Both the position numbers and the translations under genes were made by a program. A DNA stretch of 35,826 nt from Sphingobacteriales bacterium. Its GTDB lineage: Bacteria > Bacteroidota > Bacteroidia > Chitinophagales > Chitinophagaceae. The stretch spans positions 1 to 35,826 of the forward strand of contig JAHEEX010000010.1 of the NCBI GenBank assembly GCA_024640465.1. The letters are read 5' to 3'. Positions 3,573 to 29,961 of this stretch are shown here, piece after piece (position 1 is the stretch's first letter; each line of letters begins with the position of its first letter). The notes under the pieces were generated by a model, which did no database searches, had not been told where the DNA came from, and worked only from the letters and a program-made list of their open reading frames with translations.

Positions 3573-4844
3573 ATGAAGAAAAACGGTAGCAGGCTTACAG
3601 TGTATATTTTTCTGGCTATGATTGTTGGTATCATTATAGGTTACCTTGTTCATGTCAATGCCTCGGCGGAATTCATAAAGAAGTTTTCGGTCAATGCCAA
3701 GCTCCTTACCAGTATTTTTCTCAGGCTGGTTCAAATGATCATTGCCCCTTTGGTTTTTTCTACCCTTGTAGTAGGAATAGCAAAGCTGGGCGATCTTAAA
3801 ACGGTTGGCAGGATAGGCGGAAAGGCCATGCTATGGTTTATAACAGCATCACTTCTTTCATTACTTATAGGTCTGTTTTGGGTAAACCTGCTTCAGCCGG
3901 GTGTTGGTTTTACAGTTGGGAACGAAGATACAGCAGCGGCCGCTGACGTGATCAGTAAAACCAAATCTTTTTCCATTGTAGATTTTGTGAACCATGTTTT
4001 CCCAAGAAGCATTTTTGAAGCGATGGCCACAAATGAAATTCTTCAGATAGTTATATTTTCTATATTTTTTGGCGTGGCAGCAGCGGCCATTGGCGAAAAA
4101 GCAAAGCCACTGATAAAGGCCCTTGAAACATTTTCACACATCATCCTTAAAATGGTTGGTTATGTCATGAATTTTGCCCCACTGGGTGTTTTTGGAGCCA
4201 TTGCGGCTGTTGTGGCAACCTATGGAGTGGAAAGCATTGTAGTTGTGTATCTGAAATATTTTGGGGCATTTTTATTGGGGATATTTTCACTTTGGTTATT
4301 GATGTTCCTGGTTGGGTACCTGATACTCGGTAAAAGGCTTTTTGAACTGATAAAAAGGATCCTGAACCCATTGGCAATTGCTTTCAGTACCACCAGCAGC
4401 GAAGCCGTATTCCCTAAACTGGTGGAAGAACTTGAAGGATTTGGATGCAAGAATAAAATCGTTTCTTTTATACTGCCACTCGGGTATAGTTTTAACCTTG
4501 ACGGTAGTATGATGTATATGACCTTTGCCAGTATTTTTATTGCACAGGTATATGGCGTGCCGCTTAGCCTGGGGACTCAATTGACCATGCTGCTGGTTCT
4601 TATGCTTACCAGTAAAGGCATTGCCGGTGTTCCCCGTGCATCACTGGTGGTAGTTACTGCCACCTGTGCGATGTTTAATATACCACCTGAGGGAATAGCA
4701 CTGATCCTTCCTATTGATCATTTTTGCGATATGTTCAGGTCTATGACCAATGTGATCGGGAATGCTCTTGCAACAACCGCTGTGAGTAAATGGGAAAATG
4801 AATTAACTAACCCTGTTGATATTGAAACTACATACGAAGTTTAA
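3573..4844 (+). CDS. dicarboxylate/amino acid:cation symporter (DAACS family)
   Basis: A 423-residue inner-membrane symporter of the GltP/DctA (glutamate or C4-dicarboxylate with Na+ or H+) family. Signature elements seen are the serine-rich hairpin FSTTSSEAV near 271-279, LPLGYSFNLDGS near 301-312, TSKGIAGVP near 346-354 and DHFCDMFRSMTNVIGN near 382-397, which carry the substrate- and ion-binding residues. I chose the ATG at 3573. The longer frame from 3492 adds 27 residues without family similarity, and AAGAGGAC just before 3573 is weakly Shine-Dalgarno-like. Spacing to the DedA gene is 35 bases, so the two may be cotranscribed. Glutamate versus dicarboxylate preference is not decided here. 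Confidence 0.92.
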   Translation: MKKNGSRLTVYIFLAMIVGIIIGYLVHVNASAEFIKKFSVNAKLLTSIFLRLVQMIIAPLVFSTLVVGIAKLGDLKTVGRIGGKAMLWFITASLLSLLIGLFWVNLLQPGVGFTVGNEDTAAAADVISKTKSFSIVDFVNHVFPRSIFEAMATNEILQIVIFSIFFGVAAAAIGEKAKPLIKALETFSHIILKMVGYVMNFAPLGVFGAIAAVVATYGVESIVVVYLKYFGAFLLGIFSLWLLMFLVGYLILGKRLFELIKRILNPLAIAFSTTSSEAVFPKLVEELEGFGCKNKIVSFILPLGYSFNLDGSMMYMTFASIFIAQVYGVPLSLGTQLTMLLVLMLTSKGIAGVPRASLVVVTATCAMFNIPPEGIALILPIDHFCDMFRSMTNVIGNALATTAVSKWENELTNPVDIETTYEV

Positions 4845-9378: not shown

Positions 9379-9876
9379 TTACAACTTTAGTGCTTCAAGG
9401 ATCTTATCGATTTTAGCACCGCCTTCATATACCCTGACCAGTTTGTGCTGTTTGTCGTAAATAGCCAGGAATGGTATGGCTTTGGCCATGTAATAAGGGC
9501 CAAAAAAGTAAAGCATATCTCGACCCATATAAATATTGGAAAATTCAGCAATCTTATATTCCTTATAGAAACGCTGCATTTTTTCCATTGGCTGATAGGT
9601 AGCCATTACAATTTGCAGTTCAGAAAGTTGCTTTTTATTCGCCTGGATTATTTTCATTTGTTGCTGGCAATGCTCACAGTCTGGACTGAAAAGCATGATC
9701 ATAACCGGTTTGCCGGATTTAAGGTTTTTCTGGGTAGTCCAGGTCAGGCTGTCTGCTTGCAAAATCCGGAATTCCGGGAGCACCGGTTTCTTCAGGTAAG
9801 GCGGTTGTTCCGTGTTTTGCGCAAACAGGGAACTGTTAAATAGACAGATGATCAGCAAAACGAGTAGATTTTTCAT
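9379..9876 (-). CDS. exported thioredoxin-fold protein with CEHC motif
   Basis: A 165-residue protein with a signal peptide (MKNLLVLLIICLFNSSLFAQ, probable cleavage near 19-20). The mature part has a thioredoxin fold: the motif SPDCEHCQQQ places the redox pair at C67 and C70, and AIPFLAIYD near residue 134 supplies the cis-proline. It is therefore a probable periplasmic thiol-disulfide protein, distantly like TlpA/ResA. Glu-His between the cysteines differs from the Gly-Pro of thioredoxin and the Pro-His of DsbA, and the redox direction cannot be predicted. It is a single gene with EF-P divergent upstream and mdh downstream on the same strand. Confidence 0.8.
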   Translation of the reverse strand: MKNLLVLLIICLFNSSLFAQNTEQPPYLKKPVLPEFRILQADSLTWTTQKNLKSGKPVMIMLFSPDCEHCQQQMKIIQANKKQLSELQIVMATYQPMEKMQRFYKEYKIAEFSNIYMGRDMLYFFGPYYMAKAIPFLAIYDKQHKLVRVYEGGAKIDKILEALKL

Positions 9877-9962
9877 ACAGGTATTTGATGAATAAAATTA
9901 AGCAGAAACAAACAGAACCTAAAAATCAATATGACAGAAACTTTGGTTCTTTCCAACCTGAA

Positions 9963-9993
9963 TTGGCTACAAGTTGATTTTGCCTTAATTTTG
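9963..9993 (+). promoter_or_regulatory. candidate promoter for efp
   Basis: TTG (9963-9965) is followed after 20 bases by TAATTTTG (9986-9993), fitting the Bacteroidota TTTG-N20-TAnnTTTG pattern with one mismatch in the first box (ATTG). It leaves a leader of about 50 bases before the efp ATG at 10050. Confidence 0.6.
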
Positions 9994-17649: not shown

Positions 17650-18624
17650 ATGAAGAAATATATTGTTGTTACCGGTGCTGCAGGCTTTATTGGCAGTTGC
17701 ATGGTAGGGTACCTGAACCAGCAAGGAGAACATAACCTCATCCTGGTAGATGAATTTGCCCGCCTGGATAAAGTTCCAAACCTGGAGGGAAAGAAATATA
17801 CACATAAGATTGAAAGGGATTTGTTTTTTGACTGGCTAAAGGTTGAAACACCTTCCGTGAGTTTTGTATATCATTTAGGCGCCAGAACAGATACAACTGA
17901 ATTCGACTATGCTGTTCATGAAAAGCTGAATGTACAATATTCGAAAAGCATATGGGGGTATTGTACCGAAAATAATATTCCCCTGGTCTATGCATCTTCT
18001 GCCGCAACTTATGGCAGTGGAAGCCTGGGATATAACGATGATCACTCAATTGTTGATAAACTGGAACCATTAAATCCTTATGGGGTATCCAAAAATGAGT
18101 TTGATAAGTGGGCATTGCTGCAGGATACACATCCGCCACATTGGTATGGGTTAAAATTTTTTAATGTGTATGGCCCCAATGAATATCATAAAGGCCGCAT
18201 GGCCAGCGTTATATTTCATTCATTCAACCAGATAAGGGATAAGGGGTATGTGCAGTTGTTTAAATCTCATCGTCCCGATTTTGAAGATGGACAGCAATTA
18301 AGGGATTTTATTTATGTGAAGGATGTGATAAAAGTCTGCCACTGGTTTTCTTTGAATTTACCAGCTTCAGGTTTGTATAACCTGGGTACAGGTAAGGCAC
18401 GTAGTTTTGAAGACCTGGTAAAAGCTACTTATGCCGGATTAGATCGAAAGCCTGATATCAGGTTTATTGATATGCCGGAAGATATACGCGATAAATACCA
18501 GTACTTCACAGAGGCTAATATGCATAAGCTGGTAAGTGCTGGTTATAAGGATGGATTTACCAGCCTGGAGAATGGGGTAGGGGATTATGTGCGGAATTAT
18601 TTAACACTGAATAAATACTATTAG
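17650..18624 (+). CDS. hldD: ADP-glyceromanno-heptose 6-epimerase
   Basis: A 324-residue short-chain-dehydrogenase-type epimerase that converts ADP-D-glycero- to ADP-L-glycero-D-manno-heptose for lipopolysaccharide cores. The Rossmann motif GAAGFIGS is at 9-16, HLGARTDTTE near 75-84, ASSAATYG near 115-122, and the catalytic Y144-x3-K148 in NPYGVSK. The FFNVYGPNEYHKGRMASV stretch is characteristic of HldD. I chose the ATG at 17650; an in-frame TTG lies seven codons upstream. The GT9 protein at 6868 is a plausible user of its product. The lasso-peptide genes begin 54 bases after its stop, without a visible terminator. Confidence 0.94.
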   Translation: MKKYIVVTGAAGFIGSCMVGYLNQQGEHNLILVDEFARLDKVPNLEGKKYTHKIERDLFFDWLKVETPSVSFVYHLGARTDTTEFDYAVHEKLNVQYSKSIWGYCTENNIPLVYASSAATYGSGSLGYNDDHSIVDKLEPLNPYGVSKNEFDKWALLQDTHPPHWYGLKFFNVYGPNEYHKGRMASVIFHSFNQIRDKGYVQLFKSHRPDFEDGQQLRDFIYVKDVIKVCHWFSLNLPASGLYNLGTGKARSFEDLVKATYAGLDRKPDIRFIDMPEDIRDKYQYFTEANMHKLVSAGYKDGFTSLENGVGDYVRNYLTLNKYY

Positions 18625-18678: not shown

Positions 18679-18963
18679 ATGGCGCTTTCTTTAGACACCA
18701 TAATATCAAGGAATGAAACTAATTTTTTATCCAATCCCGTTGGTGATGAGATTATCATTTTAAATATGGAAACCGGCGATTATCTCGGGCTGAATGATGT
18801 TGGTTCTGCAATATGGGACCATCTAAAAACCCCACAAACAATTAAGGCGCTAATCGAAAAATTGATGACCGAATTTGAAGTGGATAATCAAACATGTTCA
18901 CTTCAGACAATGGAATACCTGGAGAAAATAAGTACACTAGGATTATTGCAGGTAGCCGTTTAA
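18679..18963 (+). CDS. PqqD-like leader-binding protein, lasso B1
   Basis: A 94-residue PqqD-family protein. IIILNMETGDYLGLNDVGSAIWDHLKTPQT (about 24-53) is the winged-helix RiPP recognition element signature. In lasso-peptide systems the B1 protein holds the precursor leader and presents it to the B2 peptidase. I chose the ATG at 18679; the in-frame TTG at 18667 would add four residues. The B2 gene begins 9 bases after the stop, as expected for a split B1/B2 pair. PqqD homologues also serve other RiPP pathways, but the neighbours make the lasso assignment strong. Confidence 0.9.
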   Translation: MALSLDTIISRNETNFLSNPVGDEIIILNMETGDYLGLNDVGSAIWDHLKTPQTIKALIEKLMTEFEVDNQTCSLQTMEYLEKISTLGLLQVAV

Positions 18964-18972
18964 TTTTCCGGA

Positions 18973-19416
18973 ATGACTTTGCATAAAAAACTACAATCAT
19001 TTACGAATACAAGCAGGGAGTTTAAATTCCTTTTTTTAAAGACAGTCATATTATCCGCTTTTGTTAAATTCAGCCTGGTTTTCTTACCCTTCAAAAAGGT
19101 ATTGAACTGGCAGGGTAAATCAAATATTGAGTCAACGGATAAACCCGATGATGCTTCTCTTCCTTTCCGGAAATCCTTGCAGTCGGCCATTCAACTTTGT
19201 GATAAGTATACTTTTTGGAAAACTGAATGTTACACCCAGGCACTGACCGCTAAAATTCTGCTTAATAATAAACGAATTCCGGCTACAGTATATATTGGAT
19301 TTAAAAAAGATGAAAAAGGAAATTATGAAGGCCATGCCTGGCTAAGGTCCTACGACAGGATAATTACCGGTGGGGAGAAGATGGAAAATTACATTGTACA
19401 TTCATTTTATTCATGA
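18973..19416 (+). CDS. lasso peptide leader peptidase B2 (transglutaminase-like)
   Basis: A 147-residue protein of the lasso B2 family, a cysteine protease with a transglutaminase-like fold that removes the leader from the precursor. The triad is visible: C86 in TECYTQALTAKILL, H121 in GHAWL, and D128 in SYDRIITG. The first 45 residues are basic and hydrophobic (FLFLKTVILSAFVKFSLVFLPF), as in other B2 proteins, where this stretch precedes the catalytic part. It follows B1 by 9 bases and is followed after 32 bases by a glycosyltransferase. Confidence 0.92.
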   Translation: MTLHKKLQSFTNTSREFKFLFLKTVILSAFVKFSLVFLPFKKVLNWQGKSNIESTDKPDDASLPFRKSLQSAIQLCDKYTFWKTECYTQALTAKILLNNKRIPATVYIGFKKDEKGNYEGHAWLRSYDRIITGGEKMENYIVHSFYS

Positions 19417-19448
19417 TACCCGGAATAGGATAATATAAAAAACATAAT

Positions 19449-20579
19449 ATGGGTATTTGCCTGAACATGATTGTGAAAAACGAATCGAAGAACCTAAGCA
19501 GGTTATTTAATTCAATTCATAGTTATGTAGATTATTTTATTATTTCCGATACAGGATCCAGTGATGATACAATCGAACTTATTTATGCATTGGGTAGCCA
19601 ATTCAACATTAAGGGAAAAGTAGTGAAACATGACTGGCGGGATTTTGCTCATAACAGGCAATTTGCATTAGAATTAGCAGTTGATGCCAGGTTAAATGGT
19701 GAGCATGACTGTAATTGGCTGTTGATCATTGATGCTGACGAAGAATTGATTGTAGCAGATAAGGATTGGGCAAATAAACTTGAGCCAGGGGTATCTTATA
19801 CAACATATAAGAATCTTGGTGGGCTGACTTACAAGCATTTGTTTTTAGTGTGGATTGAAGGACAAAAGTGGAACTGGATCGGTAAAGTGCATAATTACCT
19901 GGTGAATGAAAACAAATCTTATCTAAAAAAGCATATCAGCAATGTATATATTAAAGCTTATCAGTCGGAAGGCTCAAATACAGCACGGTTTAAAGATAAC
20001 AGTGAAAAGGGTTTATATTACCTGAATGAATTATTAGAAGAACTTGGCACAAGCGAAATATCATCCAAAAATGCAACCAGGTTTTTTCAGTTGGCTTATA
20101 CTTACAGGGATATAAATGACATGGAGTCTGCGATTGCTATAATGGATAGATTAGTTAAATCTGATAGCGTTTCTCCAGGTTTGAAATATATCTCACTTAT
20201 TTTCATGGCGAAATTTCAAATTCGACTAGATCATGAGAATCCCTTAATTAAGCAACACTTGCATCAGGCTATGGAGCTTTTACCAGAACGAAAGGAGGCG
20301 TATTATTATCTTGCAATGTTGGATAAATTTAAAAGAAAGCTAAAAGAATCAAGGGAGATGCTGGAAAAAGCAAATACGCTTCCTGCCTTGGATGAGGCAT
20401 ACAATATTATAGAGGATGATGTTTCATTATGGAAAATTAAATATGAACTTGCATTTATTTGTTTTCAGCTTCAAGATAAAGTATCTGCAGTAAAATATAT
20501 TGATGAATTAATGATGACGGAAAATGTTCCTGATATCGAGCGAAATTTTTTAATTGCCCTCAAGCAAAAAATAATGTAA
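19449..20579 (+). CDS. GT2 glycosyltransferase with TPR-like C-terminal half
   Basis: A 376-residue protein. The first 200 residues are a family 2 glycosyltransferase: ICLNMIVKNESKNLSRLF (3-20), SDTGSSDDT (33-41) for the nucleotide and DADEE (95-99) as the metal-binding acidic motif. From about 200 on, the sequence is helical with TPR-like spacing, for example FQLAYTYRDINDMESAIAIMDRL and AYYYLAMLDKFKRKLKESREMLEKA. Such GT2-TPR proteins act in glycan assembly or protein glycosylation; no substrate is known for this one. Its position between the B2 and cyclase genes, on the same strand with short gaps, suggests a role in the lasso pathway. It could still be a glycan gene captured by the operon. 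Confidence 0.85.
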   Translation: MGICLNMIVKNESKNLSRLFNSIHSYVDYFIISDTGSSDDTIELIYALGSQFNIKGKVVKHDWRDFAHNRQFALELAVDARLNGEHDCNWLLIIDADEELIVADKDWANKLEPGVSYTTYKNLGGLTYKHLFLVWIEGQKWNWIGKVHNYLVNENKSYLKKHISNVYIKAYQSEGSNTARFKDNSEKGLYYLNELLEELGTSEISSKNATRFFQLAYTYRDINDMESAIAIMDRLVKSDSVSPGLKYISLIFMAKFQIRLDHENPLIKQHLHQAMELLPERKEAYYYLAMLDKFKRKLKESREMLEKANTLPALDEAYNIIEDDVSLWKIKYELAFICFQLQDKVSAVKYIDELMMTENVPDIERNFLIALKQKIM

Positions 20580-20653
20580 AAATTCAACACAGGTTTGTTG
20601 ATTAATTGTTCTGTTTATGATGAATAATTCTTTAAAAAATTTGTAGATTATCA

Positions 20654-22570
20654 ATGAGTACAATATTCGGAATATTCCAGACAAACTCTGAACCGATCGC
20701 ACAGTCTGAGGTCGATCGGATGAGCTTTGTTATGAATCATTGGAATGCCGATAGGATAGGTATTTATTTGGATAATGAGGCTATGCTGGGTAATCTTACA
20801 TTAAAGAATACACCAGAATCCCTCAACGAAATACAACCTTATGAAACTGAAGAATACACAATAACTGCTGATGTCAGGCTGGACAACAGGACAGAAATAT
20901 TTAAGCTTCTAAGTGAATTCAGAATTGTTTCTGCATCTTCCCCTGATCCCGAATTGATTTTATTCCTTTACTTGAAATTTGGGGAGCGTTGTACCGATTA
21001 CCTTATTGGTGATTTTGCCTTTGCAATCTGGGATAAATTAAATCGTCAATTATTTTGTGCAAGGGACCAGATGGGGATCAAACCTTTTTTTTATTACCAC
21101 CGCAACAACCTTTTCGCATTTGCATCGGAAAAGAAAGGCTTACTGGCTCTTTCAGGGGTAGACAAATCTGTGAACGAAGATTTTGTGTACAAACTTCTTG
21201 CAGATATTGACCCACAGCCATCAGAAAATTTCCATCGGCACATAAACTATTTATTTCCGGCACACCAGCTCAGGGTCAATAAGAATGAGATAGTTAAAAG
21301 AGAATATTGGAAGCTGGAAATTCCCCCAATAATAAAATGCTCAAATCAGGATGATTATATTGAGGGATTTAGGGAGCAATTATTTAAATCAGTTAATTCC
21401 AGGTTAAGGACAAGCTATCCAATTTCTGTTGAATTGAGTGGTGGTCTGGATTCATCCGGAATCTTGGGAATGGCCACTATGCTTATTAATGATAGGGACC
21501 GTTTATATACTTTTTCAAATGTCTTAGAGAAAAATGAAAAGGGTGTAAAAGATTACCCGGATGATGAAGAATCTATTGATGATGTTTTAAGTTTCAATCA
21601 AATCAAAAACAGTGTTAAAGTTGGCAGCAGTGAGTGGAAGTATTTGACTGAGCCGCATAAACTTGAGCTATTTGTGCAAAGTGGCATAGGCATGTCCAAT
21701 TCAATTTGGCAGGAACCTATCAGAAGAAAGATGCAAGATGCCGGGTGCAGGGTCACTCTTTCCGGGTTTGTTGGCGACGAAGCGGTTTCAAACAGGGCAA
21801 GACATTATCATTATGGTTTCCTTGAAGAAAAAGCATATTGGGACTTTCTTAAAATTTCATTTCAGAAAAAACAATATTCGCTTCCATTTAATTCCCTTGT
21901 ACGAGGCCTGATTCCATCTCAATGGCAACATTTTTTCAGCCGGGATAAATATGTATCATACCCCAGAAACAGCTATTTACTGGATAAGGAAATCGAAACC
22001 CGGCTCCTGAAAAGTGATATTATAGAATCGCCAAAACCTACCAGGAGTTTTAAACAATTAATAGTCAGGAACCTTAATCGTGTAAGGTATTCATCCAGAA
22101 TTCTTCATGAGGGATCCTACGGGATTACGCATCGGCTTGAACCGAGATATCCATTTGCAGATATCAGATTGCTGTCATATTACCTTTCATTGCCAACCTC
22201 GGTTCTTGGTCATCCAACAATTAACCGTTATTTGTACCGGCGGGCCATGCAAGGTATAATTCCGGAAAAAGTCAGGTGGCATGATGATAAAACCAGGGCT
22301 GCAGGAATTTTTCTTTTAAAAGAAAACCGGGAATCCGCCAAAGAGCTAAAGGACTGGATATCAGAGCGGTCTAAAAATATTTCAACAGAAAGCCTGCTAC
22401 AAAAAATAGATTTCAATAAAATCATTGCCGGTCTCGACAAGGAAAATCCATTAAACTATGCCAATAATCAATTTAATCCGGTAAGATCTTTCCGGGCAGA
22501 ACTGATTATATATTATTTTTCTATTGCCTCAAACCGTGAAAAAATGCTGATTGAGCCTTTTATTGCTTAA
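20654..22570 (+). CDS. lasso peptide cyclase C (asparagine synthetase-like)
   Basis: A 638-residue asparagine-synthetase-B homologue. In lasso pathways this enzyme adenylates the side chain of an Asp or Glu and forms the isopeptide ring to the N-terminus. The N-terminal half keeps the glutaminase-fold marks RLDNR (75-79), GDFAFAIWD (119-127) and CARDQMGIKPFFY (135-147). The catalytic Cys2 of true asparagine synthetases is Ser (MSTIFG), so no glutamine hydrolysis is expected. The ATP-pyrophosphatase loop SGGLDSS is at 262-268 and is intact. The C-terminal YPFADIRLLSYYLSLP segment is typical. The precursor gene follows 255 bases downstream. Confidence 0.9.
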   Translation: MSTIFGIFQTNSEPIAQSEVDRMSFVMNHWNADRIGIYLDNEAMLGNLTLKNTPESLNEIQPYETEEYTITADVRLDNRTEIFKLLSEFRIVSASSPDPELILFLYLKFGERCTDYLIGDFAFAIWDKLNRQLFCARDQMGIKPFFYYHRNNLFAFASEKKGLLALSGVDKSVNEDFVYKLLADIDPQPSENFHRHINYLFPAHQLRVNKNEIVKREYWKLEIPPIIKCSNQDDYIEGFREQLFKSVNSRLRTSYPISVELSGGLDSSGILGMATMLINDRDRLYTFSNVLEKNEKGVKDYPDDEESIDDVLSFNQIKNSVKVGSSEWKYLTEPHKLELFVQSGIGMSNSIWQEPIRRKMQDAGCRVTLSGFVGDEAVSNRARHYHYGFLEEKAYWDFLKISFQKKQYSLPFNSLVRGLIPSQWQHFFSRDKYVSYPRNSYLLDKEIETRLLKSDIIESPKPTRSFKQLIVRNLNRVRYSSRILHEGSYGITHRLEPRYPFADIRLLSYYLSLPTSVLGHPTINRYLYRRAMQGIIPEKVRWHDDKTRAAGIFLLKENRESAKELKDWISERSKNISTESLLQKIDFNKIIAGLDKENPLNYANNQFNPVRSFRAELIIYYFSIASNREKMLIEPFIA

Positions 22571-22710
22571 AAAAAGTCATTATAATGTCTTATTTTATTT
22601 GAGTTTCAGCATTTATTGCACCTTATAAATAATAATTGCAGGCAGAAGGCGTTTCTATTATCAGTAACCTCTAAACTATATTATTTTCGAGCAGGATAGA
22701 AGGAGGAGGT

Positions 22711-22740
22711 CAACATATTGTTATATATTTATATATGTTG
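22711..22740. repeat. A/T-rich inverted repeat upstream of the precursor gene
   Basis: CAACATAT (22711-22718) and ATATGTTG (22733-22740) are exact reverse complements, 14 bases apart. It may be an operator or a weak 3' hairpin for the cyclase transcript. The region is so A/T-rich that chance remains possible. Confidence 0.35.
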
Positions 22741-22796
22741 TATCAAATATTTTAGATCATTAATGAGAAAAGTATAAAATTTCTTATAATTTTGAT

Positions 22797-22804
22797 TAGA
22801 TTTG
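22797..22804 (+). promoter_or_regulatory. candidate -7 box for the lasso precursor gene
   Basis: TAGATTTG fits TAnnTTTG and ends 21 bases before the precursor ATG. No TTTG box stands 20 bases upstream, so this is a partial match. A separate promoter would let the precursor be made in excess of the enzymes. Confidence 0.4.
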
Positions 22805-22825
22805 CAAATTATTAAACGTAGTTCA

Positions 22826-23005
22826 ATGGAAAATCTTAGGTCAGCTCAATTAGGAATATCAAATGAAGCCAAATCTTCGGTGGAAGCTGAGAATAAAAAA
22901 ATTTGGAGTAAGCCTAATGTTACAGAAATCTCTAAATTTTCAATCTTAGCCGGTCCATCTACTGGTAAAGATGAAACTGGGTTTCCTTCCTATTTGCCAA
23001 GTTAG
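22826..23005 (+). CDS. lasso peptide precursor A
   Basis: A 59-residue peptide. The leader (about 1-41) contains W27-S-K-P30-N-V32, matching the aromatic-xx-Pro-x-aliphatic pattern that B1 proteins recognise. The core is AGPSTGKDETGFPSYLPS if cut before A42, or the same without Ala if cut before G43. The ring would link the N-terminus to E50 (position 9 or 8) or to D49 (position 8 or 7). The AGPxT opening and the terminal Ser resemble paeninodin. The usual Thr two residues before the cut is absent (Ile or Leu instead). I chose the ATG at 22826; an in-frame TTG at 22802 lies in the -7 box. A terminator follows at 23103-23135. Confidence 0.85.
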   Translation: MENLRSAQLGISNEAKSSVEAENKKIWSKPNVTEISKFSILAGPSTGKDETGFPSYLPS

Positions 23006-23102
23006 TTTTTAACCTGGTAAACCGTAAAGTACTTTTTTTACAATAAGAAATAATTTGCCTTTAGTTTATTAGTGCGGGTATATTTTATTGAAAACGAATT
23101 TT

Positions 23103-23135
23103 AAAGCCGTCTGACATATACTCAGAGGGCTTTTT
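23103..23135. terminator. terminator between the precursor and kinase genes
   Basis: AAAGCC-G-TCTGA pairs with TCAGA-G-GGCTTT over a 7-base loop with one mismatch, followed on the plus strand by a T-run (23131-23135). The minus strand also has a T-rich tail, so it can serve both the precursor and the convergent kinase gene. Confidence 0.85.
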
Positions 23136-23217
23136 ACTTTTATGTGAGATTAAGAACTTTTTTGTGCCTGATGGCTTATTTAACTTTCCGGATTTAAATA
23201 ATTAAGGCAGGTTTTGA

Positions 23218-24138
23218 TCATAGCGGGAAAAGGCCTTCTGTAAAATCTGTAAATTTTTCAATTGTACTGCTGTCTTTTGGTCTGCCCAGCACCATTATTT
23301 CTGCACGGAGGATAAGCCCGCTAATTATTTCCATATGTAATTTTTGCAGGTTGTTTTCCATGATAAACTGGCTGCGATAAGTATTTTTTCCAACCAATTC
23401 AAATGCTTCTAATCCGGAGATCTTTCTGGCAGTATAATCGGATGATTCAAGGTTGGGGTTGAGGATGAATATTTTTTTTATCGGATAGGCATTTGTAACA
23501 AAACTTTCATGAAAAAAATGGCCATACTTGTCTGCCTTTGGCCTTAGTTTATGCTTCTTTTCAAATTGATCGTCGTCAAGGGCATTGATTGTGTCATCCC
23601 AGAGTTTCATCATTGGATATGATGCCATGGCATAAACAGATTTATCCTCTTTATGGATAGGTTGTAAAACGCAAATGTCATCTGAAAAAATAGGATAGCC
23701 TCTTTTGCTTAGTTCTGCTGCTATACTTGATTTACCCGCACCGGATTCTCCCATGAATAGGATAATTTCGTTTTCATAGATAATAGCTGATGAATGAAGT
23801 AGTATTTGGTTTCTTTGTACAAGAAGTGCCGCCATTGCATTACTTAGTAAAAATAACCTGATAGTACTTTGAGCACTGTTATTATAGGGTTCAACCAGGA
23901 TAGATTTTCCCTGCGATGATAAATACCTTGCTACTTCGGGAATATCCAGGTAAAACCTGGATTTTATACCGGGATATGTTTTTTCTGTAGAAGTTTTCTC
24001 AGGAATATCATCGGCGGTAATTTGTCCAAAAGTAATGGTTATGTCTTCCTCGTTGAAATTTGCAGGCATAAGTTCAGGAAACTCCATATCCGAAAGGATT
24101 TTCAGACCAAAGCCGGTATATTTAAATTGCTTATTCAT
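23218..24138 (-). CDS. HPr kinase-like protein, probable lasso peptide kinase
   Basis: A 306-residue homologue of the HPr kinase C-terminal domain. LLHSSAIIY precedes the P-loop GESGAGKSS (130-138), and FSDDICVL follows near 151-158, standing for the acidic metal-binding strand of HPr kinases. Members found in lasso clusters (PadeK of paeninodin and relatives) phosphorylate the C-terminal serine of the precursor. The precursor here ends in Ser, which fits. I chose the ATG at 24138; an in-frame TTG at 24156 adds six residues. It is the only gene of the cluster on the minus strand, convergent with the precursor and divergent from the exporter. An HprK role in carbon control is unlikely, as the N-terminal HPrK domain is replaced by unrelated sequence. 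Confidence 0.85.
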   Translation of the reverse strand: MNKQFKYTGFGLKILSDMEFPELMPANFNEEDITITFGQITADDIPEKTSTEKTYPGIKSRFYLDIPEVARYLSSQGKSILVEPYNNSAQSTIRLFLLSNAMAALLVQRNQILLHSSAIIYENEIILFMGESGAGKSSIAAELSKRGYPIFSDDICVLQPIHKEDKSVYAMASYPMMKLWDDTINALDDDQFEKKHKLRPKADKYGHFFHESFVTNAYPIKKIFILNPNLESSDYTARKISGLEAFELVGKNTYRSQFIMENNLQKLHMEIISGLILRAEIMVLGRPKDSSTIEKFTDFTEGLFPL

Positions 24139-24269
24139 TTTTTTTATAGCTGGCAAAACTTCCTGAAAAAAAGAAAAAAACTATCTTAGAAGATGTGTGC
24201 GTTTGGTGAATGATTGAATTTCTGTTGATTGTGTAAAATTGTGCTTTATATTGCAATATTATTAAATAG

Positions 24270-26042
24270 ATGAAAAACAAAATACTTTCCCTTTCGAATA
24301 ATCTCAGATTTGTTTTTCAGATTACCTATAGTATTGACCGAAAGCTATTTTTCCTAAATATTATTTTCTTCATATTACTGGCTATTCTGCCTATTGTGTC
24401 ACTTTGGATGTTAAAGTTACTGGTTGATAACATCATTAAGTCTGGCAATATTCAGGATCCAAAAGTGATGATCTTCGTTGGGCTTTTCATTGTAGTTCAA
24501 ATTCTATTCTCTTTTATACAGCAATGGTCTGCTTACTATCTGCAAAAACAACAATATCTTTTAAGCGAACATATATCTTTGAAAGTTTTATCTAAAGCCG
24601 CTGAAATTGATTATGCATTTTATGAAGATCCGGAATTTTATGATTCACTACATTTAACCCAGAACAAATCCGCTTATTTACCAGCACAGATCATAAGTAC
24701 TTTGCAAACCCTGGTCCAGCAGTTATTCATGTTTATTGCACTTGCACTTTTTCTCTTCTCTATTCACTGGAGCATCCCGCTGATCCTGCTTTTTTTAAGT
24801 CTGCCGATGGCATTTTCGAAGATGCTCTTTGGCCGGAAACAATTTGAATTGGAAAAGAGTATCGTTCCTGCACAACGAAAAGGATTTGAATTGTATAATT
24901 ATATAACTACAAACCATTATGCGAAAGAGTTGAGGATTTTTGATTTTGGGAGTTATTTTACAGAATTATATCGCAAAGTTCAGGAAGAGATTTTTGTACA
25001 AAGGAACAAACTTCAATATATTTTTCTTCAGAAGAATATGTTTGTTACATTCTTTGAAGTGGTTTGTATTACCCTGTTTTACCTGGTACTGATTCAAAGA
25101 AGTATTTCCGGGGCAATTACAATTGGGTCTTTGATAGTCTATTTCCAGGCTTTTCAACGCTTGCAGTCTTCTGTTTCCGGGATTTTTAATTCGGTTGTAT
25201 CATTATTTCAGAACCAGTTATACCTGCAGGAAATCATTAAATACTTTGCTTTGCCAATAAGCAGACAGGTTGGTACGGAATCAAATGGAACTTTGATGAG
25301 TCCTCCTGAAACAATTGAAGTACGTAAACTGTCATTCTGCTATCCGGGTACCACTAAGGAAGTGCTCAAGGACATCAATATGACTTTCACGAAAGGTAAA
25401 TTTGTTGCCATAGTGGGAGAAAATGGATCTGGTAAATCAACACTGCTAAAATTACTTTGCGGTCTTTACGGTTCAACATTAGGAGAACTATATTTTAATG
25501 GAATCCCATCAAATGAACTTCCCGGCTCTTATTTTTCAAAATATATTTCTGTTGTTTTCCAGGACTTCGGGAAATATTATATGACCGTGGAAGACAATAT
25601 AGCCATTGGGCAAACGTATAAAGATCCACAAAAAATTGAACTTGCATTGAGAGAAGCAACCGGGGAAAAAATGGTTCAATCACTTCAAGCCGGCATTGGG
25701 ACTACACTCGGCAGATCACATAAATTAGGTGAAGAATTAAGTGGTGGTCAGTGGCAAAAAATTGCTATTGCAAGGGCATTGTATAAGGATGCAAACGTTT
25801 TGATACTGGATGAGCCTACAAGTGCCATTGACCCAATTGCAGAATTTGAATTTTTCCAGAATCTGCGCAATAATATAAAAGACAGGATCATCATATTGAT
25901 TACACACCGATTATATAACCTCAAATTAACGGATTATATATACGTAATGGAAGATACAAAGGTGATTGAATCAGGAAGTTTTAATCAGCTTATACAAAAA
26001 GAGGGTTATTTCAGTCGCTACTATAATGCGCAAACGATATGA
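24270..26042 (+). CDS. ABC transporter, lasso peptide exporter D
   Basis: A 590-residue half-transporter with an N-terminal six-helix membrane domain (about 1-320) and a C-terminal ATPase. Walker A GENGSGKST is at 383-391, the Q-loop glutamine at 431, the signature LSGGQ at 490-494, Walker B VLILDEP at 510-516 and the switch His at 546. All catalytic residues are intact. Such exporters (D proteins) pump the mature lasso peptide out of the cell and give self-immunity. No C39 peptidase domain is present, consistent with leader removal by B2. The stop codon overlaps the next gene's start (ATGA), so the two are translationally coupled. Confidence 0.92.
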   Translation: MKNKILSLSNNLRFVFQITYSIDRKLFFLNIIFFILLAILPIVSLWMLKLLVDNIIKSGNIQDPKVMIFVGLFIVVQILFSFIQQWSAYYLQKQQYLLSEHISLKVLSKAAEIDYAFYEDPEFYDSLHLTQNKSAYLPAQIISTLQTLVQQLFMFIALALFLFSIHWSIPLILLFLSLPMAFSKMLFGRKQFELEKSIVPAQRKGFELYNYITTNHYAKELRIFDFGSYFTELYRKVQEEIFVQRNKLQYIFLQKNMFVTFFEVVCITLFYLVLIQRSISGAITIGSLIVYFQAFQRLQSSVSGIFNSVVSLFQNQLYLQEIIKYFALPISRQVGTESNGTLMSPPETIEVRKLSFCYPGTTKEVLKDINMTFTKGKFVAIVGENGSGKSTLLKLLCGLYGSTLGELYFNGIPSNELPGSYFSKYISVVFQDFGKYYMTVEDNIAIGQTYKDPQKIELALREATGEKMVQSLQAGIGTTLGRSHKLGEELSGGQWQKIAIARALYKDANVLILDEPTSAIDPIAEFEFFQNLRNNIKDRIIILITHRLYNLKLTDYIYVMEDTKVIESGSFNQLIQKEGYFSRYYNAQTI

Positions 26043-27226
26043 GGGATATACAAGGGATATCAAATGATTATGGTCCGGAAATTGCTTTGACGGTTTTATT
26101 GCTTCGAATAAAAATGGGAAAGTCGCCCGAAGAAGATGCTGCTGCTTTTTTATTGAATAATAAACTGAACCTGTCTGCTTTTCTGACTTTACTGGAAGCC
26201 CATCAGATTGAAAGTATATTATTTAGTACAACGCCTTTAAAAAATTTATTCCCCGGGGAGCCCGATATTATAAAGTTCAAAGAAAAAATAAGCCTCAGGT
26301 CAAAAGTAAATTTGATCATTTTAGATGAACTGGTAGCCCTTCAAAAAATATTTCATGAGCATCGTTGTGAAGTGTTATTTTATAAGGGGGTTGTCCTGAG
26401 TAAATTGTTATTCGGTGATTTCACAACCAGGACAACATCAGATATTGATATCTTGATTAACGCCCGGGACTTTGTTTCCATAAGAAATTTGTTACTTGTT
26501 GCTGGTTTTGAAGAAATGTACTTTTATCCTGATAGGTTTCCTGATTATTACCTGAAAGTAAACCGGGAATCTCTATTCCGGAAAAAATGCATTGCCGGGA
26601 CTTATATATATGTAGAAATTCAGTGGGCACCATTGCCAGCGTTCTATGGACTCCCATTTAATAATAATTATTTTTTTACCAGTGTGGTTTCAGAAAGACT
26701 CCTGCAAGAAGATATTAATATGCCGGGGTTGAATGAGCATATGCTTATACTGTTTATTCATCACGGCATCTCAGATCTCTGGAGAAATTTGAAGCACGTT
26801 TTTGACATTGCATTATTGGCTGATAAATATCAGGATACCATCGATTGGAGAAAAATCGAGCAATATATTGCCGATCAAAAATTTGTGCGGATTTCAATTG
26901 TCGGAAGGAATTTATGCAGAAGCTTGTTTGGGGTGGAAATACCCATTTTCAGTGCAAAGGAGAACGCACAAAAAGAAACTGAATCATGTTTGCATTCTTT
27001 GCTTTCTTTTCCATTACTCACTAAAAAGAAAAAAACATTAGTAAATCTTAAACGGCAATTAATGTTAAGTGATGGATTTTATGAGCGTGTGAAATTGTGT
27101 AGAGGATACCTGGAGGCATACATTAAGCCAAGTATGATTGATCTGAAAAATCAGCAATTCCCTCCCTTTTTATTTCCTCTATATTATATTACAAAACGAT
27201 TCAGGTTTTTATATGGCCGGAAATAA
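26039..27226 (+). CDS. nucleotidyltransferase family protein (PF14907-like)
   Basis: A 395-residue protein of the uncharacterised nucleotidyltransferase group. FYKGVVLSKLLFGDFTTRTTSDIDILI (114-140) contains the family's KG pair and the catalytic DID (135-137), and LNEHMLILFIHHGISDLWRNLKHVFDIALL is the usual second half. Genes of this family sit in several lasso clusters that also carry a kinase. From memory, in the pseudomycoidin system the homologue decorates the phosphate with hexose. It overlaps the exporter gene by four bases (ATGA), which argues strongly for a shared pathway. A role in modifying the phosphorylated peptide is inferred, not shown. Confidence 0.82.
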   Translation: MRDIQGISNDYGPEIALTVLLLRIKMGKSPEEDAAAFLLNNKLNLSAFLTLLEAHQIESILFSTTPLKNLFPGEPDIIKFKEKISLRSKVNLIILDELVALQKIFHEHRCEVLFYKGVVLSKLLFGDFTTRTTSDIDILINARDFVSIRNLLLVAGFEEMYFYPDRFPDYYLKVNRESLFRKKCIAGTYIYVEIQWAPLPAFYGLPFNNNYFFTSVVSERLLQEDINMPGLNEHMLILFIHHGISDLWRNLKHVFDIALLADKYQDTIDWRKIEQYIADQKFVRISIVGRNLCRSLFGVEIPIFSAKENAQKETESCLHSLLSFPLLTKKKKTLVNLKRQLMLSDGFYERVKLCRGYLEAYIKPSMIDLKNQQFPPFLFPLYYITKRFRFLYGRK

Positions 27227-27296
27227 AAATAGGGTTCAAAATTTCAATTATTTCGGTTTGTCGTATAGTTTAAAAATAGGGTAATTTTTAAAAATT

Positions 27297-28004
27297 ATGC
27301 AGTCTGACGGATTTACTCATGTTCCCTTAGTTTATAAAAACCTGGATATTTACCAGATCCGTAATAGTATACTTAATGCTATTAAAGAGGTTTCTCCTTT
27401 ATTAAATGGGCGATTGCTGGATGTAGGATGTGGAAAAATGCCCTATAAAAAATATTTAATTGAAAATACCCGTATTGAAGCATATACCGGTTTGGATCTG
27501 GAAGATGCCCTTCCTTATCAACCAGGTACCAGGCCAGACATTTTTTGGGATGGTCAGACTATTCCGCTACTCGATGCTTCATACGACTGTGCCATTGCAA
27601 CTGAAGTTTTGGAACATTGTCCTGAGCCCGTTAAAACACTGACAGAAATACACAGGGTTATTAAGCCAGGAGGCGTTTTTTTCTTCACAGTTCCTTTTTT
27701 ATGGAACCTGCATGAAGTTCCGAATGATGAATATCGTTATACTCCTTTTGCCCTGGATAGAATGTTAAAAAAAAGCGGGTTTACCAATATTGAAATATAT
27801 GCTACAGGAGGTTGGCATAGTTCATTGGCACAAATGCTTGGTCTTTGGGTTAGAAGATCGCCGATTTCTCCGGTTAAAAGGAAATTGTTTTCCATATTTC
27901 TGAAACCATTGATCAGATTCCTGATAAAGAAAGATGTATTTAAGAAAAATATTTTTAAAGAAGGTGAAATGATAACAGGAATTTATGGGTGGGCAAAAAA
28001 ATAA
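27297..28004 (+). CDS. class I SAM-dependent methyltransferase
   Basis: A 235-residue methyltransferase. The SAM-binding loop LLDVGCGKMPYKKYL is at 40-54, followed by GLDLED and the DCAIATEVLEHCPEP motif IV region, then IKPGGVFFFTVPF. The sequence resembles methyltransferases of surface-polysaccharide clusters, in which EVPNDEYRYTPFALDRML is common. It is not like the known lasso carboxyl O-methyltransferases that I can recall. It starts 70 bases after the nucleotidyltransferase gene and overlaps the next glycosyltransferase gene by 20 bases. The substrate could be the lasso peptide, its sugar, or an unrelated glycan. Confidence 0.85.
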   Translation: MQSDGFTHVPLVYKNLDIYQIRNSILNAIKEVSPLLNGRLLDVGCGKMPYKKYLIENTRIEAYTGLDLEDALPYQPGTRPDIFWDGQTIPLLDASYDCAIATEVLEHCPEPVKTLTEIHRVIKPGGVFFFTVPFLWNLHEVPNDEYRYTPFALDRMLKKSGFTNIEIYATGGWHSSLAQMLGLWVRRSPISPVKRKLFSIFLKPLIRFLIKKDVFKKNIFKEGEMITGIYGWAKK

Positions 28005-29088
28005 CAAAATTGCCATAGTTACTCCTTACCTGGATGCATACTCGGAAACATTTATCCAGGCACAGATTGATTTACTAAAGCCAAAGCTGGTATTGCATAC
28101 CGGAAGGCTTCCAACCATGGCGGGTGATGTTGAATTAATGGGAAAATTTAAAAAGCGTTTTAATAAGCTCGGTAAAGCGTTTTTTAAAAAAGAATTTTTT
28201 TCGCTGGAAAAACGTATAGCTGAAGTATTGACAGAAAATAATATCGGGATAATTTTAGCTCAATATGGGCCAACTGGTGTGGCTATGTTGCCTATTTGCA
28301 AAAAACTTACTTTACCACTTGTTGTGCATTTTCATGGTTTAGATGCCAGCCGGTTTGATATCCTGGAAAAGTATGCTGCATCCTATAGGGAAATGTTCAA
28401 TTTTGTCAAAGCAGTCATTGTTGTTTCTAATAGTATGGCCGACAGAATATTGCAACTGGGATGTCCTCCTGAAAAAATCAAATTGAACCATTATGGGGTG
28501 AATGATTTGTTTTTTAAATCTGTACCAACATATGATTCAGAAAGGTTTATTGCCGTTGGGCGATTTGTTGAAAAAAAGGGCCCGGACCTTACCATCCGGG
28601 CATTTTCAAAAGTTGTTGATCTTTATCCCCATGCAAAATTGATTATGATAGGGAATGGGCCATTGCTCGAAATGTGTAAACAACTTACGCGTGACCTTTC
28701 AATGGAAAAAAATATTTTTTTCCCAGGAGTAGTTAAGCATGATTTAATAGGAGGTTTTATGGAAAAATCACTTGCTTTTGTACAGCATTCTATTATTGCA
28801 GCAAATGGAGATAGCGAGGGTACACCCGTTGCCATTTTGGAAGCATCAGCTGCTGCTTTGCCGGTAATTTCTACTTTTCACGCAGGCATTCCTGATGTGG
28901 TTATTGATGGGATAACCGGATTCCTGGTAAAAGAAAAGGATATTGATGCTATGTCTTTTGCGATGCTGCAATTACTCGCAGATAAACCCCTGGCTTCAAG
29001 AATGGGCAAAGCCGGGAGGGAGAGGATGGAGTCCGGATTTTCTATGGAACGGTATAGCACTGTACTTAAAAATATACTGGAAGCATAA
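27985..29088 (+). CDS. GT4-type glycosyltransferase
   Basis: A 367-residue GT-B glycosyltransferase of family 4. YSETFIQAQ near the N-terminus, VVHFHGLDA near 111-119, GRFVEKKGPDL near 191-201 and the nucleotide-sugar motif GDSEGTPVAILEASA near 274-288, with its paired glutamates, support the call. It overlaps the methyltransferase gene by 20 bases, so the two are translationally coupled. It is the last gene before the terminator at 29114-29142 and so closes the cluster transcript. Donor and acceptor are unknown. A second glycosyltransferase in the same run is at 19449. Confidence 0.88.
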   Translation: MGGQKNNKIAIVTPYLDAYSETFIQAQIDLLKPKLVLHTGRLPTMAGDVELMGKFKKRFNKLGKAFFKKEFFSLEKRIAEVLTENNIGIILAQYGPTGVAMLPICKKLTLPLVVHFHGLDASRFDILEKYAASYREMFNFVKAVIVVSNSMADRILQLGCPPEKIKLNHYGVNDLFFKSVPTYDSERFIAVGRFVEKKGPDLTIRAFSKVVDLYPHAKLIMIGNGPLLEMCKQLTRDLSMEKNIFFPGVVKHDLIGGFMEKSLAFVQHSIIAANGDSEGTPVAILEASAAALPVISTFHAGIPDVVIDGITGFLVKEKDIDAMSFAMLQLLADKPLASRMGKAGRERMESGFSMERYSTVLKNILEA

Positions 29089-29113: not shown

Positions 29114-29142
29114 AGCCGCAAGATTTATGCTTGTGGCTTTTT
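29114..29142 (+). terminator. terminator at the end of the lasso/glycosylation run
   Basis: AGCCGCAAG pairs with CTTGTGGCT (one G-T pair) around a 7-base loop, followed by five T residues. It lies 25 bases past the GT4 stop codon and marks the cluster's right edge before proC. Confidence 0.82.
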
Positions 29143-29163: not shown

Positions 29164-29961
29164 ATGAATAAAAAAATTGCCATCATCGGCGGCGGAAATT
29201 TAGGAAAAGCAATTGCGGAAGGACTGGTTAAAAGTGGTTTTACTTTACCTGGGCATATTATGGTAACCAAAAGGAATATTGAACCTATCCGTTACCTTGA
29301 AGAAAAAGAGATCTTAATCGGGAACGATAATATAGAGGCCGTGAAGTATGCTGATTTGATCATCCTGGCTGTTAAACCTTTTCAGGTGCATGATGTGCTC
29401 AGGACGCTACAAGAAAGTCTCGATGCAAAGCGTCATTTGCTTTGTTCTGTTGTTACAGGAGTTTCCATTGATTCGATACAGGATATTGTTGGTAAGGATT
29501 TTCCGGTTGTCAGGGCTATGCCCAATACAGCCATTGCCATTCAGGAAAGTATGACCTGTATATGTCTCCGAAATACAGATGCTACACAACAATCATATGT
29601 GGAGGACCTTTTTAATCAATTAGGAAGGGTTGTTGCGATCGATGAAAAGCTAATGGACGCTGCTACGGTTTTAGGAGCTTGCGGAATTGCATATGCATTA
29701 CGCTTCATACGTGCCAATATTCAGGGTGGAATTGAAATCGGATTTGATGCTGCAACGGCAACTTTGATTGCTGCGCAAACAGTTAAAGGCGCTTCTGAGT
29801 TACTCATTCAAACCGGAAGGCATCCCGAACAGGAAATTGATAAAGTAACCACGCCTAAAGGGTGCACTATTGCCGGATTAAATGAGATGGAGCACCAGGG
29901 TTTTAGTTCATCCCTGATAAAAGGTATCGCTGCCAGTTTCGAAAAGATCAGTAAGGATTGA
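29164..29961 (+). CDS. proC: pyrroline-5-carboxylate reductase
   Basis: A 265-residue NAD(P)H-dependent enzyme that makes proline from pyrroline-5-carboxylate. The Rossmann motif GGGNLGKAIAEGL is at 8-20. VRAMPNTAIAIQESMT in the middle and VTTPKGCTIAGLNEMEHQGF near the C-terminus are the family signature, with KGCT instead of the common GGTT. Length is normal. It starts 22 bases after the terminator ending the previous unit, so it is probably a separate transcript. It ends 28 bases before the convergent T9SS gene. Confidence 0.94.
   Translation: MNKKIAIIGGGNLGKAIAEGLVKSGFTLPGHIMVTKRNIEPIRYLEEKEILIGNDNIEAVKYADLIILAVKPFQVHDVLRTLQESLDAKRHLLCSVVTGVSIDSIQDIVGKDFPVVRAMPNTAIAIQESMTCICLRNTDATQQSYVEDLFNQLGRVVAIDEKLMDAATVLGACGIAYALRFIRANIQGGIEIGFDAATATLIAAQTVKGASELLIQTGRHPEQEIDKVTTPKGCTIAGLNEMEHQGFSSSLIKGIAASFEKISKD

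Follow-up and report, generated by a model that had tools for sequence, protein, structure and literature searches.

The pairing of a kinase with a nucleotidyltransferase in lasso peptide gene clusters is already known. The bsf lasso cluster of Bradymonas sediminis comprises A, B1, B2, C, D, K and N, and its kinase, BsfK, phosphorylates Ser3 of a peptide ending in Asp (PMC10368454); the product of the pseudomycoidin cluster of Bacillus pseudomycoides, which includes psmK and psmN, carries a phosphate and a hexose on its C-terminal Ser (PMC9266682); and lasso clusters of Butyrivibrio fibrisolvens contain an HPr kinase, a nucleotidyltransferase and a 'glycosyltransferase family 2' protein together (PMC7533575). 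Here, a stretch of 35,826 nucleotides from a Sphingobacteriales bacterium (contig JAHEEX010000010.1; the whole stretch is referred to as the window) has been analyzed, in which a block of ten genes at 18679-29088 (B1, B2, GT2, C, A, K, D, N, MT and GT4) is flanked by hldD and proC. The block is a real, site-specific lasso cluster, and we consider it likely that it encodes a phosphorylating and glycosylating pathway of the pseudomycoidin/bsf type, to which the methyltransferase (MT) and GT4 genes would have been added as a landed pair. Gene content, conservation, genomic site, clade membership and predicted fold form the basis of this reading, and every catalytic step is deduced from them.

With the bsf cluster, the window shares the gene set A, B1, B2, C, D, K and N, a leader end in which Ile replaces Thr, and the lasso-kinase motif H-G-G-G-K-S-D-D described for the bsf kinase, every element of which is found in the window K, whereas the bsf host belongs to another phylum, its kinase targets Ser3, its peptide ends in Asp, and no glycosyltransferase is listed in the available part of the report (PMC10368454). 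The likeness to pseudomycoidin lies in the kinase plus nucleotidyltransferase and in the C-terminal Ser, which also ends the window precursor, but the host is a member of Bacillota and GT2 is not mentioned in the portion of the source at hand (PMC9266682). Because the Butyrivibrio clusters, also from Bacillota and compared by description only, are described with a kinase, a nucleotidyltransferase and a GT2-class protein in a single lasso cluster, this combination is not wholly new (PMC7533575). The open-licence literature searched yielded no Bacteroidota lasso cluster that includes a SunS-like glycosyltransferase and no lasso site between hldD and proC, which argues only weakly for their absence from print. 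The GT2 clade and the filled and empty forms of the site described below are real, and a conserved set of kinase, nucleotidyltransferase and SunS-like glycosyltransferase is defined for probably sugar-modified lasso peptides in Bacteroidota, which one report names as underexplored for lasso peptides (PMC7533575). The analysis also suggests which neighbouring genes are dispensable when the pathway is rebuilt, and the filled or empty site makes function and transfer directly testable.

Lasso genes in the gap between hldD and proC

A search of 41 genomes of the genus, including the source genome, detected proC at an expectation value (E) of 1e-40 in 28 and hldD at E 1e-80 in 12; the genus belongs to Chitinophagaceae and is represented mainly by metagenome assemblies. 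Every relative with a proC at least 71% identical (13 genomes) was examined, leaving out the other 14 proC carriers (47-51%), and site content was read by phmmer and tblastn. B1 directly follows hldD in seven of the 13 (G406, G399, G397, G412, G413, G422 and G403), and in five others (G203, G416, G286, G421 and G405, the last with hldD split over two reading frames) hldD and proC are separated by 3-98 bases and no lasso gene is present; in G394, purL is followed by proC and there is no hldD. The occurrence of filled and empty sites in close relatives indicates that the lasso block occupies a defined gap, and the recurrence of lasso genes in this gap in seven other genomes puts the block beyond chance.

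Among the seven filled sites, B1 and N were found in all, B2, GT2 and C in six each, and K in five. The complete site is on one contig only in G406 and G399, the order in the remaining relatives being pieced from separate contigs or cut: a contig break extends from B2 into C in G413, the contig of G422 ends inside GT2 with C out of view, and K is out of view in G412 and G422 at contig breaks. The order B1-B2-C-A, whose absence from relatives the preliminary description had named as a refuting outcome, is kept among relatives with GT2 between B2 and C, and K, the sole block gene on the opposite strand, is likewise reversed in all five relatives that show it. D is present at the site in G406 and absent in G399, G397, G413 and G403, where K adjoins N; it is not visible in the other two. 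Between the window and G406, purL, hldD and proC are 78-83% identical and the genes from B1 to N 40-63%, a higher divergence of cluster genes than of flanks that could stem either from rapid divergence or from repeated exchange by way of the flanks.

Family calls were based on Pfam curated cut-offs and NCBIfam models. On the plus strand, B1 (18679..18963), a PqqD-like leader-recognition protein of the type termed RRE (recognition element of ribosomally synthesized and post-translationally modified peptides, RiPPs), scored 55.5 bits with PF05402, above its cut-off, and 68.2 bits with NF033536, below the cut-off of 80; the leader peptidase B2 (18973..19416) matched PF13471 (61.4) and NF033537 (71.9 bits, cut-off 33) and has Cys86 and His121; and the asparagine-synthetase-like lasso macrolactam cyclase C (20654..22570) matched PF00733 (88.8) and, below the cut-off of 525, NF033535 (352.7), with SGGLDSSG at 262. 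These three and the precursor are present together in the window. K (23218..24156, minus strand), an HPrK-like peptide kinase, has the lasso-kinase motif set H, GxxGxGKS and DD (His121, GESGAGKSS from 136, DD) despite a PF07475 score of 27.2 bits, below the cut-off of 33.3. It is followed on the plus strand by the ATP-binding cassette exporter D (24270..26042; PF00005, 107.8 bits, above the cut-off) and the nucleotidyltransferase N (26039..27226; PF14907, 106 bits, cut-off 31.2); psmN and bsfN presumably belong to PF14907 as well.

The minimal set of B1, B2, C, A and D, which had been called complete, is indeed all present by family matches or position, and the overlaps given earlier for D and N (4 bases) and for MT and GT4 (20 bases) are exact. 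On the left is hldD (17656..18624, plus strand), 66-79% identical to its counterparts in the 11 further genomes of the genus that gave a match at E 1e-80, and on the right a terminator-like stem-loop (29114..29138, plus strand) stands in the interval between GT4 and proC (29164..29961, plus strand), the gene used for the genus search, which adjoins hldD directly in five genomes. This framing had also been described before, though the terminator scan of the window gave 8 elements against 9.7 expected by chance, so that its total is not above chance.

In G403 (L134:3762-5234), a shortened B2 runs in frame into GT2 as a single frame of 490 amino acids, and record L157 appears identical; in G422, B2 and GT2 are separate, unlike the fused frame of G403, for which fusion or decay and an assembly fault are the explanations considered.

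The GT2-TPR glycosyltransferase

GT2 (19449..20579, plus strand) is a GT-A glycosyltransferase with a C-terminal TPR domain (PF00535, 26.3 bits, cut-off 23.3), which follows B2 in all six relatives where its position is visible. When an alignment of five GT2 sequences was used as a profile against PDB sequences, designed TPR proteins and the GmaR catalytic domain outranked SunS, which was matched over residues 6-307, spanning both domains, at E 3e-7 and 33 bits; ThuS was matched at E 0.056. An AlphaFold2 model was built from a five-sequence alignment, with a mean predicted local distance difference test score of 85.5. The six best PDB matches of this predicted structure were all SunS/ThuS chains (7msn, 7msp, 7msk; E 7e-17 to 1e-14), the next glycosyltransferase being TarS at 3e-6, and template modelling scores of 0.5-0.6 point to the same GT-A plus TPR fold. 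Judged from the model, GT2 and SunS/ThuS have a common build and not close kinship.

A scan of contigs for GT2 homologues kept 79 loci, which were compared with B1, B2, C, K and N profiles built from family loci. Eight of them carry at least one of these genes, and these eight are the top-scoring group; the independent ones are a Mucilaginibacter locus (L156, with B1, B2, C, K, D and N) and a Flavobacteriia locus (L162). In a tree of 81 rows, from which L164 was left out as too short, the lasso-linked GT2 proteins of the window, G406, G399, G397, L155, L156, L157 and L162 fell, together with the orphan L159, into one clade with support of 100/100, within which the window protein pairs with that of Mucilaginibacter at 88/92, under the stricter support mark. 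The clade is rare: in a sample of 394 genomes of the family, which did not include the seven relatives, no match other than the window itself scored above 122 bits, and in a sample of 395 genomes of the class only two besides the window exceeded 300 bits (the next was 141), and their coordinates identify these as the genes of L156 and L159. Next to the conserved His, eight of nine distinct clade members have Asn on its C-terminal side, and Mucilaginibacter has Glu; outside the clade, His-Glu (HE) was seen in 73 of 76 readable rows (7 further rows were gapped), and also in SunS. Conservation at the site and the grouping in the tree indicate that GT2 is a genuine member of the lasso cluster and that its clade tracks lasso clusters.

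Ser glycosylation of a lasso peptide (iterative glycosylation) had reportedly been described by 2025. The six precursors at the site contain no Cys in leader or core, and an O-linkage is expected for the GT2 sugar on that account. A bolder idea, which strikes us as improbable, is that the GT2 clade is a new type of peptide glycosyltransferase that transfers its sugar to the phosphate placed by the kinase on the lasso precursor, yielding a sugar-phosphate-peptide, and that the hldD-proC gap is a genus-wide slot in which diverging lasso clusters with such chemistry are swapped. The change from HE to HN would then mean the loss of a base unneeded with a phosphate acceptor; that HE acts as a base is itself conjecture.

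Two of the GT2 loci have further genes. The Mucilaginibacter locus is a rearranged cluster with GT2, K, D, B1, B2, C, the start of N, and sulfotransferase-domain and formyltransferase-domain proteins, a possible still larger tailoring set. The Flavobacteriia locus (L162:2880-7948) contains GT2, a candidate precursor (4042-4173, minus strand), a GT28-type glycosyltransferase (Pfam) and a cyclase, with no B1 or B2 in that stretch; its small methyltransferase-like protein of 182 amino acids has no Pfam match and was judged from its N-terminus.

Precursor, proposed pathway and competing readings

The precursor gene A (22826..23005, plus strand) encodes 59 amino acids, with leader WSKPNVTEISKFSIL(A) and core (A)GPSTGKDETGFPSYLPS, and has no Pfam or NCBIfam match. 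Homologues were detected at the equivalent position after C in five relatives, with profile E values of 2e-30 to 5e-18 over the six precursors, of which five had themselves gone into the profile. The six leaders share W..P....IS[KR]..IL and the cores share GP[STN]xG..E; the WSKP of the window leader agrees with W/YxxP, and the acidic residue, Glu, is at position 8 from Gly or 9 from Ala, within the expected 7-9. Position 3 (counted from Gly1) is Ser or Thr in five of the six. All six have the same spacing of 8 between GP and Glu, whereas that from the leader IL to Glu varies between 8 and 10, the Mucilaginibacter candidate included, and for this reason two ring sizes are considered. The fixed spacing suggests a ring from Gly1 to Glu8, and the case for such an eight-residue ring appears evenly balanced. 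Counted from the leader IL, the reading is Ala1-Glu9 in the window, Gly1-Glu9 in G406 and ten residues in the remaining four cores, and the Flavobacteriia candidate would suit a nine-residue ring with Thr(-2); the Ala1-Glu9/Gly1-Glu9 reading is close to the paeninodin core, and a nine-residue ring, Ala1-Glu9, is a tentative but serious possibility for the window.

In the proposed pathway, B1 would bind the WxxP leader, K would phosphorylate a Ser or Thr of the precursor (most likely the C-terminal Ser17, with Ser3 as second choice), B2 would remove the leader, and C would close the eight- or nine-residue ring. N may extend the phosphate with a nucleotidyl or sugar group, GT2, with its SunS/ThuS build, may put a sugar on a Ser or Thr of the peptide, and D would export the product, which is probably the core (A)GPSTGKDETGFPSYLPS closed by a ring to Glu and carrying phosphate and sugar on Ser/Thr. 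The monoisotopic masses calculated for the ring-closed core, with water lost, are 1720.79 Da on the Gly1 reading and 1791.83 Da on the Ala1 reading, to which a phosphate would add 79.97, a hexose 162.05 and a HexNAc 203.08. The MT-GT4 pair, of a type found in surface-polysaccharide loci, would have landed between N and proC and need not act on the peptide.

MT (27297..28004, plus strand; PF08241, 55 bits, above the cut-off) is a class I S-adenosylmethionine-dependent methyltransferase and GT4 (27985..29088, plus strand; PF00534, 117.9 bits, above the cut-off) a glycosyltransferase. Both are missing at the site in all seven lasso-bearing relatives, in six of which the junction of N and proC is on one contig with no more than about 100 bases between the two genes; the genus search gave no close GT4 homologue (best 34%), and the best MT was 43% identical. 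In a family sample of 294 genomes, source genome included, GT4 was found at E 1e-40 in 17 and MT at E 1e-35 in 21, and homologues of both are adjacent, in the order of the window, in five genomes (G181, G134, G276, G065 and G035; MT 50-59%, GT4 42-46% identical). The 15-20 kb around each pair, judged by eye from translated starts, contain transport ATPases, aminotransferases, acyltransferases and many glycosyltransferases and look like polysaccharide loci; no B1, B2, K or N match was found in these stretches, asparagine-synthetase-like genes in G276 and G065 match C weakly (44-69 bits), and the transport ATPases match D weakly. Two further genomes (G253 and G208) have MT without GT4 at the threshold, in surroundings that resemble the five pair loci. 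As the pair is at home in glycan loci, it was probably inserted in the window, and MT and GT4 are probably late additions from a cell-surface sugar locus. Of the refuting outcomes named in the preliminary description, assignment to a separate glycan locus applies to MT and GT4. They were rejected as members of the conserved set, so that of the unusually large tailoring set claimed in that description GT2 holds as a genuine member and MT and GT4 probably do not.

It might be argued that all ten genes form one pathway, in which recruited MT and GT4 methylate and further glycosylate the lasso peptide: the two lie on the same strand as N, after a 70-base gap without a terminator-like element, overlap each other and are followed by such an element before proC, and the Flavobacteriia locus also has a GT28-type glycosyltransferase and a putative small methyltransferase beside its candidate precursor. 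However, neither of those genes was flagged as an MT or GT4 homologue, and with the pair missing at all six visible junctions and found in five glycan-type loci, we regard this reading as unlikely. That GT2 is a surface-glycan enzyme merely travelling with lasso genes seems more doubtful still; the orphan L159 speaks for it, as do GT2-TPR relatives that fall outside the clade and have no lasso genes in their loci, but GT2 follows B2 in the six relatives, recurs in the rearranged Mucilaginibacter cluster, and belongs to a clade in which eight of nine members are lasso-linked. A non-lasso RiPP is very improbable. Clusters for linear polyphosphorylated peptides share an RRE, HprK, an NTP transferase and an MsbA-like exporter, i.e., counterparts of B1, K, N and the exporter, but the same source describes these peptides as lacking a macrolactam cyclase (PMC13381572), and both B2 and C are present in the window and its relatives. 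A glycocin was also considered and rejected, the Cys and disulfides expected of one having no counterpart in the Cys-free site precursors.

Several observations weigh against a phosphorylated and glycosylated lasso peptide with GT2 as its SunS-like enzyme. GT2 is only 17-19% identical to SunS/ThuS, and the root-mean-square deviation is 15-16 Å over whole chains and 4.7-4.9 Å for a shorter SunS construct, the large whole-chain value meaning that the domains match but their relative placing differs; where SunS has the HE pair, the GT2 clade has HN; and the likeness may mirror a general build, few GT2-TPR structures being solved. The window GT2 is matched at 35-128 bits by many GT2-TPR proteins that lie outside lasso loci, against 33 bits for SunS even with the profile; six of the eight lasso-linked loci (L155, L157, L158, L160, L161 and L164) come from the genus relatives themselves and are not independent of the site result, L162 is lasso-linked only through its cyclase and a hand-picked precursor, without B1 or B2, and the GT2 of L159 (Flavobacteriales), whose score is within the group, is flanked by ilv genes with no lasso gene. 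As for the peptide, the usual Thr(-2) of the leader is missing, the residue being Ile in the Ala1 count or Leu in the Gly1 count, Ile/Val(-2) being a published exception (PMC10368454). The window precursor ends in ...YLPS, a final Ser found in one of the six site precursors, the other five carrying Ser one residue before the end. No product has been observed.

Lasso loci across the family and minor features

NF033537 was matched in 25 of 394 family genomes, source genome included, and 24 loci of 23 other genomes were annotated, leaving out weak matches in G276:C19 and G053:C3. K homologues were found in 21 of the 24 loci and N in 16, and no frame in them best matched GT2, MT or GT4; one locus (L052), in which no cyclase was seen, is probably not a lasso locus. 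Six of the annotated genomes are from the genus of the source genome, and each carries, at another location, a different lasso cluster that lacks GT2. Because K occurs in 21 of the 24 loci, kinase-bearing lasso clusters are ordinary in the family; the statement that Firmicutes are their best-known hosts agrees with much of the literature but does not describe Chitinophagaceae, and K with N has been published for Bacillus and Bradymonas. Among the 21 other kinase loci, 17 have a plausible precursor, hand-picked from regular-expression hits, of which 15 end in Ser and two in Thr.

A promoter scan of the window for sigma-70 elements gave 53 against 50.6 expected, and a Bacteroidota -7-like element at 22797-22805, before A, is not informative, the pattern having 17 matches in the window against 11 expected. 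Elsewhere in the family, a very large protein with a peptidase C25 domain is encoded beside a lasso cluster at L031:612-5675, and frames of 1684-1694 amino acids in L030, L032, L033, L034, L047, L050 and L051 were likened to it by size only. In L048, two precursor-like frames (9405-9569 and 9815-9979) lie beside the cyclase with their last 45 residues identical, which represents a duplicated precursor.

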